Shown: positions 24,770 to 26,702 of the stretch, in pieces
Layout: each line of letters starts with the position of its first letter
Numbering within the stretch: position 1 is the first letter of the stretch
Position numbers and translations under genes: made by a program
NCBI GenBank assembly: GCA_038893495.1
Contig: JAWARJ010000001.1
Coordinates: 1,725,824 to 1,789,823 of the forward strand
Origin: Thermoproteus sp.
Lineage (GTDB): Archaea; Thermoproteota; Thermoprotei; Thermoproteales; Thermoproteaceae
Direction: 5' to 3'
Length of the DNA stretch: 64,000 nucleotides
Notes under the pieces: generated by a model
The model's input: only the letters and a program-made list of their open reading frames with translations
Database searches by the model: none
What the model was told of the DNA's origin: nothing

Positions 24770-25192
24770 GTGTCTGCTGGAGAACAACCAGCCGAAGCCA
24801 AGCCCCAGAAATTGAGGTGGGGCATAGCTTGGATTTATTCTAGTAGCAATAACACCATAATCACCATAACGGACCTAACAGGGGCCGAGACAGTCGCCAG
24901 AGTGAGTGGAGGGCAGGTGGTGAAGGCCGATAAGGACAAGCCGTCGCCGTGGGCTGCGATGCAAGCCGCATATAGAGCCGCCCAATTGGCGCTTGCGAGG
25001 GGCATAAACGCTGTTCATATAAAAGTGAGGGGACCTGGAGGCTACGGCATGAAGGTGCCGGGTCCCGGCGCCAGCGCGGCCATAAGAGCTCTGGCTAGGG
25101 CCGGCTTAGTCATAGGCAAAATAGAGGACGTCACGCCCATACCGCACGATACGATCAGGCCGCCTCATGGCCGTAAAGGCAGAAGGGTCTAA
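24770..25192 (+). CDS. rps11: 30S ribosomal protein uS11
   Basis: 140 residues matching archaeal uS11: [60 protein letters not shown] and [19 protein letters not shown]. It binds the 16S platform near helix 23/24. The frame extends upstream to TTG 24722, but family length and the TATA position support GTG 24770. In many archaea rps11 sits between rps4 and rpoD; here it is about 16 kb away from rpoD, in its own small operon with the 25167 gene. Confidence 0.96.
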
Positions 25193-25517
25193 GAAGGTCG
25201 ACTGCCTCGTCTTAGAGGTAGATTACAGCAAAGAGCGGCCTAACGAGTGGACCAGCACAGCACTTAGATATGCGAGGATACGCTCCCGCAAGCTATTAAT
25301 AATAGCTCTCAACGGAGTCGCCGACGTGGTGCTGGCCGATTTACGGGCCCTATCGGCTAATAATATAGACTTTCCTGTGCGGCTCTATGAAGGCAGAGAT
25401 CTAGAGGAGGTGGTTAGGGCTGAGAAGTGCAATACATATGAGGTAAAGACTGTGGACGATATGGTTAATTTAACGCAACGTATACATGTCGGTGATGAGA
25501 AGGCATTAGGGGCGTAG
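25167..25517 (+). CDS. Hypothetical protein downstream of rps11
   Basis: 116 residues, not recognised. It has an alpha/beta look ([40 protein letters not shown]) with two cysteines. Its ATG lies within rps11, overlapping it by 26 bp, so it is probably translated from the same message. Confidence 0.65.
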
Positions 25518-25541
25518 TATCGCCGGCGCTGGAACTACTGA
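25492..25541 (+). ncRNA. Weak C/D-box guide RNA candidate
   Basis: Perfect C box GTGATGA (25492-25498) and D box CTGA (25538-25541), 39 nt apart, near the length of a standard dual-guide RNA. No convincing D' or C' box is visible. Its 5' part overlaps the end of the preceding gene. TTAATTTAA (25465-25473) is about 25 bp upstream. The 12-mer ATGTCGGTGATG around its C box recurs at the next sRNA. Confidence 0.35.
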
Positions 25542-25569
25542 CTTTTATAGGGGGCCGCTATTAATGTCG

Positions 25570-25616
25570 GTGATGTGGCTGAGCTACGCTGATATGTGAG
25601 GAGCGGATAGAGCTGA
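25570..25616 (+). ncRNA. C/D-box guide RNA, predicted tRNA D-arm target
   Basis: C box GTGATGT (25570-25576), 12-nt guide GGCTGAGCTACG, D' CTGA (25589-25592), 3-nt spacer, C' GTGAGGA (25596-25602), 10-nt guide GCGGATAGAG, D CTGA (25613-25616). The first guide is complementary to CGTAGCTCAGCC, the usual sequence of tRNA positions about 6-17. By the N+5 rule it would direct methylation at G10. CTTTTATA (25542-25549) is a plausible promoter. It ends inside the nog1 promoter region. Confidence 0.85.
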
Positions 25617-25640: not shown

Positions 25641-26702
25641 GTGCGTTTTAACGTGCCGTATATATATTCATCCGAGGAGTTGAAGGAGTATTTTATAGGC
25701 GTATATAAGTCCACAGAGGCTAAGAGCCCCACGGTGGAGCCCGGCGTGGAGAGGCTGAGGCGTCTAGAGCTGACTAGGATAAGAAAGGCCAGCAAGTCCC
25801 TTATAGATGCGCTTAGAGATATGGCGACCTCTATGCCCTTCGTGGCGGATCTACATCCATTCTATAAGGATTTGTTGGATCTAGGCGTAGGGATTCTTAG
25901 ATATAAGCACGCATTGGCTAAAATAGGCAACGCTACAACTGCCGTCAGGGCTATATCCAAGGAGACGATAGCCGCCCTAAAGACTGCATACGCCAAAGAC
26001 CAGATATATCGAGTAAGGAAGGCCTTTATTGCTAGAATTATCGATCTTATCGACGATTTAGCGCCGGAACTAGAAACAATAAAATCTGCCTCGTCATTCT
26101 TCAAAAAACTTCCCGATATAGATCCAGAGCTATTCACAATAGTGGTGAGCGGAGCGCCCAATGTTGGCAAGAGTAGCCTTGTCGGTTGTCTCTCTACGGC
26201 GAAACCAGAAGTTGCGGAATATCCATTTACCACAAAACAAATACATGTTGGCCATATTTTCGTTAAGGGAGATAAAATACAAGTTATAGATACTCCGGGC
26301 CTTCTAGATAGGCCCTTCGAGGAGATGAACAATATAGAGAAGCAAGCTGTGCTAGCTTTGAGACATCTAGCTAAAGTTATACTGTTCGTCGTAGATCCGA
26401 CATATCACAGCGGCTATGACCCACACATACAAATAAACATATATAATAGTATTAAGAATAATTTCAATGTGCCTATAGTAGTTATTCTAAATAAAATTGA
26501 TATAGCAGATAGAGAGGAGATAAGAAAAATAGAAGAATTATTTGGGACGAATCTTATATATATATCGGCCAAATTATGTAAAGGTATAGAAGAACTAAAG
26601 AATAAAATACTAGAAGATTACTACGTTCCATATATGTTAAATAAGCTGGTTGATGAGAGGAGACGCGTCAGCGTTGGAAGCCGACGCCAGCTACCGACAT
26701 GA
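25641..26702 (+). CDS. Nog1-like GTPase
   Basis: 353 residues. The N-terminal helical bundle of Nog1 (about 1-165: [29 protein letters not shown]) precedes a G domain: G1 [15 protein letters not shown] near 171, [10 protein letters not shown]3 [11 protein letters not shown] near 217, G4 LNKID near 283, G5 ISAK. Eukaryotic Nog1 works in 60S subunit assembly; the archaeal form is inferred to do the same. The last third of the gene is A/T-rich. The 3' end overlaps convergent rtcA by 35 bp. Confidence 0.92.

Follow-up and report, generated by a model that had tools for sequence, protein, structure and literature searches.

A conserved box C/D sRNA of Thermoproteus with a predicted guide to G10 of tRNAs

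What RNA is encoded in the short gap upstream of a NOG1-type GTPase gene of Thermoproteus, and which nucleotide would it mark? We analyzed a 64,000-nt stretch of the 1,995,394-base genome (here called the window), in which a first-pass annotation had placed a C/D-box RNA at positions 25570-25616 of the plus strand. Read from the sequence, the elements of such an RNA occur in the expected order and spacing: box C (GTGATGT, 25570-25576), a 12-nt D' guide (GGCTGAGCTACG, 25577-25588), box D' (CTGA, 25589-25592), a 3-nt spacer (TAT, 25593-25595), box C' (GTGAGGA, 25596-25602), a 10-nt D guide (GCGGATAGAG, 25603-25612), and box D (CTGA, 25613-25616). The annotation had described D', C', and D as good and C as having one deviation. 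Boxes D' and D are indeed perfect and box C departs once from RTGATGA, but C' also departs once (G for T at the fifth position) and is no better than C. The lengths of both guides and of the spacer fit the geometry of archaeal box C/D sRNAs, whose guides measure 10 to 12 nt (PMC4644070). When both strands of the 64 kb were searched under strict criteria for two pairs of C/D boxes, this was the only site, and none of 40 simulated windows with dinucleotide frequencies kept contained a motif of that type. Together with the conservation of the guide in orthologues, described below, these results bear out the original call. By its sequence features, the stretch at 25570-25616 is a genuine, canonical archaeal box C/D sRNA, with every defining feature examined present.

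The sRNA is flanked by a 116-amino-acid open reading frame (ORF; 25167-25517), for which no match was found in Pfam or NCBIfam, and by the NOG1-type GTPase gene (25641-26702). A TATA-like element (TTTATA, 25544-25549, plus strand) is centered 23 nt upstream of box C, and each of the five members of the genus compared has an element of this kind 23 to 26 nt ahead of box C. This steady spacing suggests that the sRNA has its own putative promoter; the share of archaeal C/D genes with an independent promoter is put at only about 20% (PMC7994747). A short ORF running across the sRNA (ATG at 25565) was considered and rejected, because the orthologues do not keep it.

The D' guide is antisense to tRNA positions 6 to 17. 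The first-pass annotation had arrived at the same reading and proposed searching the tRNA set of the genome for the 12-nt match, which three tRNA genes carry. Genome-wide, CGTAGCTCAGCC occurs five times: in these three genes, in the sRNA itself, and at one non-tRNA site. The exact 12-nt match belongs to Lys-CTT, Lys-TTT, and Arg-GCG, putative isotypes assigned from introns spliced by hand; ARAGORN anticodons were unreliable for the intron-bearing tRNAs here, and the Lys genes were called Leu and Pro. Most of the matched tRNA genes contain introns. Over positions 6 to 15, nine tRNA genes (two Lys, four Arg, Phe, Trp, and Ile) form 10/10 Watson-Crick pairs with the guide, and the title of Yang et al. 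2016 (cited in PMC6313347) gives ten nucleotides as the maximum that a C/D guide recognizes. Counting five nucleotides from box D' (the N+5 rule) leads to C25584, which lies opposite G10 in all nine matched tRNAs, the position that had been predicted. All nine have a G10-C25 pair and a GCUC D stem, an assignment that for Trp and Arg(TCT) requires hand removal of a D-arm intron. In comparison, tRNAs with GUCU or GUAU D stems pair poorly with the guide (a mismatch at position 12, G-U pairs, and no run longer than 5 to 6), and several of these, Pro among them, have G10-U25. The predicted clientele widens by a few more tRNAs if one weak position is allowed.

Other features of the tRNA genes were seen alongside. 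An extra D-arm intron, starting with TTGA after position 22-23, is present at genome positions 986248 (Trp), 81170 (Arg TCT), and 1979246. Partial tRNA-like 5' parts (beginning with GGGCCCGTAGCTCAGCATGG or GCGGGGGTAGCTCAGCC) occur at genome positions 119472, 460297, 486294, and 1094936 with no obvious 3' half nearby, and may be gene remnants, parts of split tRNA genes, or genes interrupted by long introns.

Neither guide has an rRNA target that stands out. The longest pairing run of GCGGATAGAG with 16S or 23S rRNA is 8, against a mean of 8.6 for shuffled rRNA, so that no target rises above chance, and the best 16S/23S match of the tRNA guide is likewise no better than shuffled rRNA. The second guide has diverged among the five genus members (GCGGATAGAG, GTGGACGTATG, GCGGATAAGG, GTGGACACATG, and GGGCAAAAAAG) and, on this comparison, is an orphan with no conserved target.

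The genus has about six members, and in four other genomes (L037-L040) the sRNA lies just upstream of the same NOG1-type GTPase gene. The core GCTGAGCTACG of the D' guide is invariant in all five despite diverged flanks and a diverged second guide. Box D is kept in 5/5 members, and box C' reads GTGAGGA or GTGAAGA throughout, most of its positions being invariant. Box D' is degenerate in two of the five (CCGA and CGGA), where activity may be weakened. A search for related loci with the neighboring GTPase returned bacterial GTPases only.

The guide extends well beyond the genus. A second genus of the family (n = 11), to which we give the name Pyrobaculum by inference, carries the identical guide GCTGAGCTAC in 11/11 genomes, and GCTGAGCTACNCTGA is present in the same 11 and in members of no fewer than six further families of the phylum (f25, f29, f43, f51, f59, and f67). 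Across the phylum, the same guide ends directly before CTGA in 38 of 398 genomes, compared with 1 match for the reversed control. At about 30 of these 38 sites, C and C' boxes are located where a complete C/D RNA would have them; four matches have no boxes and are probably due to chance (G305, G286, G094, and G053), and one (G055) is equivocal. Several genomes of family f51 have the same GTGATGT ahead of the same guide. When the gap between CTGAGCTAC and CTGA was scanned class-wide from 0 to 6 nt, 1 nt was the commonest spacing, plain tRNA antisense matches aside, and this offset fixes G10 as the target. The guide stands before D in Pyrobaculum and other families and before D' in the genus of the window. 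Circular permutation of the sRNA gene was considered as the origin of this move and rejected, as the other guides share no similarity. The first-pass annotation had regarded 2'-O-methylation of G10 (giving Gm10) as unusual; within this lineage the guide is not unusual, being present in all Pyrobaculum genomes and several other families. Given this distribution, we see the sRNA as a well-supported but unexceptional representative of an established class.

Proteins that could act with the sRNA are encoded in the same genome. Fibrillarin (PF01269, 349.6 bits) and Nop5 (PF01798, 249.3 bits) are the products of adjacent genes about 9 to 10 kb outside the window. A Trm11-like homologue is encoded at genome positions 1606240-1606686 on the minus strand; its 240-residue frame matches TIGR01177 at 93 bits, below the curated cutoff and over model positions 165 to 330 only, the C-terminal half. 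Similar matches to TIGR01177 occur in 19/19 genomes of the family, none above the curated cutoff. With only the C-terminal half of the model matched, the putative enzyme of this genome may have lost its THUMP domain. In Thermoprotei (Sulfolobus), Trm11 without a THUMP domain has been described, and tRNA-Pro there shows no modification at position 10 (PMC12247713). The statement of the first-pass annotation that G10 is commonly N2-methylated in archaea needs narrowing, since N2-dimethylation is tied mainly to tRNAs with G10-U25 (PMC7668247, PMC12247713), whereas the matched tRNAs have G10-C25. Ribose methylation of the matched tRNAs therefore need not compete with it.

We consider it highly probable that the sRNA guides 2'-O-methylation of G10 on tRNAs. 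In the mechanism that we propose, an RNA of about 50 nt would be transcribed from its own promoter between the short ORF and the GTPase gene, and L7Ae, Nop5, and fibrillarin would assemble on it. The D' guide would then pair with positions 6-15 (up to 6-17) of tRNAs having the GUAGCUCAG D arm, and fibrillarin would methylate the 2'-OH of G10, probably in the pre-tRNA ahead of full D-arm folding. In a mature tRNA the acceptor and D stems hide positions 6-15, so the substrate is probably unfolded or precursor tRNA. The tRNA-modification literature searched contained no mention of Gm10 and nothing specific on G10 guides. In Pyrococcus furiosus, most of the tRNA methylations predicted from C/D guides were undetected among the tRNAs analyzed (PMC7668247).

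The same burial of the target gives some weight to a different role, in which the ribonucleoprotein acts mainly as a chaperone of D-arm folding or keeps G10 from being N2-methylated, and methylation by it is incidental or does not take place. Binding to 6-15, which spans both stems, must precede or open the tRNA fold, and an RNA-chaperone role has been discussed for archaeal C/D sRNAs (PMC7994747). Against this role stand the fixed register between guide and D or D', with the 1-nt spacing that puts N+5 on G10 the commonest, and the conservation of the guide-adjacent boxes in most genomes, and we regard this explanation as unlikely. Another possibility is that the guide serves a target other than tRNA, such as an mRNA, and one exact non-tRNA match does exist, at genome position 1232222. 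The lack of any rRNA match above chance and, in many families, conserved guide nucleotides that coincide exactly with the universal tRNA D-arm sequence make this very improbable. Decay of the sRNA, lack of expression, or a chance motif would fit the single deviations in C and C' and the degenerate D' in two relatives, yet a guide that stays invariant among orthologues with diverged flanks, and the absence of such motifs from the simulated windows, leave it hardly credible.

If the sRNA does direct Gm10 formation, one C/D guide would serve not one tRNA but a broad clientele of at least nine. If made, this ribose methylation of archaeal tRNAs is one that a survey of reverse transcriptase (RT) misincorporation would not be expected to show. 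In the published survey, the signal at position 10 was interpreted as m2G or m2,2G, and some Thermoprotei tRNAs were reported as unmodified there (PMC12247713); since it reads misincorporation, we would not expect 2'-O-methylation to appear in it. More tentatively, labor may be divided across the phylum, an old and conserved C/D sRNA making Gm10 on G10-C25 tRNAs and a THUMP-less Trm11 homologue making m2,2G10 on G10-U25 tRNAs, with the guide having moved from D to D' in the genus of the window. Such a split between guide and Trm11 by the pair at positions 10 and 25 is a hypothesis for which the support here is guide complementarity. The 12-nt guide occurs in several cultured genera, which makes the predicted Gm10 directly testable.

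The G10 sRNA has a neighbor of the same type. Immediately upstream of it, a C/D-type sRNA that we call X (25492-25541, plus strand; C GTGATGA, D CTGA) has a GGCG/CGCC hairpin where D' and C' would lie and overlaps the stop codon of the 116-amino-acid ORF. It is conserved at 13 loci of the family and adjoins the G10 sRNA in two genera although the surrounding protein genes differ. Exact antisense sequences of X were found nowhere else. A reading of X as targetless was nevertheless abandoned once G-U pairs were allowed, as its arms then match two 23S rRNA sites 16 nt apart, in AAATGCCTTGCCGGGTAAGTTCCGGCGT, and 0 of 60 shuffled rRNAs gave paired sites like these. We predict that X has two guides, one for each of these neighboring 23S sites. 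The spacing of the two sRNAs varies: at one Pyrobaculum-group locus (L043, genome G011) the D box of X is immediately followed by the box that stands ahead of the tRNA guide, and at another (L046, genome G005) X and the G10 sRNA overlap, whereas they are separate in the genus of the window. At both Pyrobaculum-group loci the two sRNAs may be fused or share a CTGA box.

Among known systems, Rfam sR1 (RF01152) and sR2 (RF01139) have a box pattern and spacing like those of the window sRNA, although the sR2 guide differs. Membership in either family was rejected at scores of about 10 to 27 bits against gathering thresholds of 42 to 45, the matches being driven by the boxes and not by the guide, and none of the Rfam C/D families (sR1, sR2, snoPyro_CD, and others) reached its gathering threshold for the window sRNA. 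Close parallels are the tRNA-targeting C/D sRNAs of Pyrobaculum. In six species of that genus, as reported through PMC7994747 from Lui et al. 2018, 16% of the guides target tRNA, with one guide of an sRNA on tRNA and the other targetless. The window sRNA has the same pairing of one tRNA guide with one targetless guide, and there too many tRNAs are served by one guide aimed at a conserved stretch, but the G10 guide of Pyrobaculum precedes D and that of the window sRNA precedes D'. Lui 2018 probably lists the Pyrobaculum orthologues already; this family may be one of its 110, perhaps with G10 given as the target. For Thermoproteus tenax, 52 C/D sRNAs were described from RNA-seq by Dennis 2015, where complementarity to tRNAs was noted but left uncompiled (PMC4644070). 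The Cm56 guide of Pyrobaculum aerophilum provides a precedent for tRNA ribose methylation by L7Ae, Nop5, fibrillarin, and a C/D guide RNA, as proposed here, but acts at position 56 instead of 10 and replaces a stand-alone enzyme, Trm56 (PMC6313347, PMC7912444). The C/D RNA of the tRNA-Trp intron (sR50 type; Cm34 and Um39) also guides tRNA methylation, but it resides inside the intron of its own target and acts on the anticodon arm, whereas the window sRNA has a free-standing gene and is directed to the D arm. Trm11/Trm-G10, which forms m2G10 and m2,2G10, addresses the same nucleotide as the predicted target of the sRNA; it is a protein enzyme that acts on the base and favors G10-U25, whereas the window sRNA is predicted to direct modification of the ribose.
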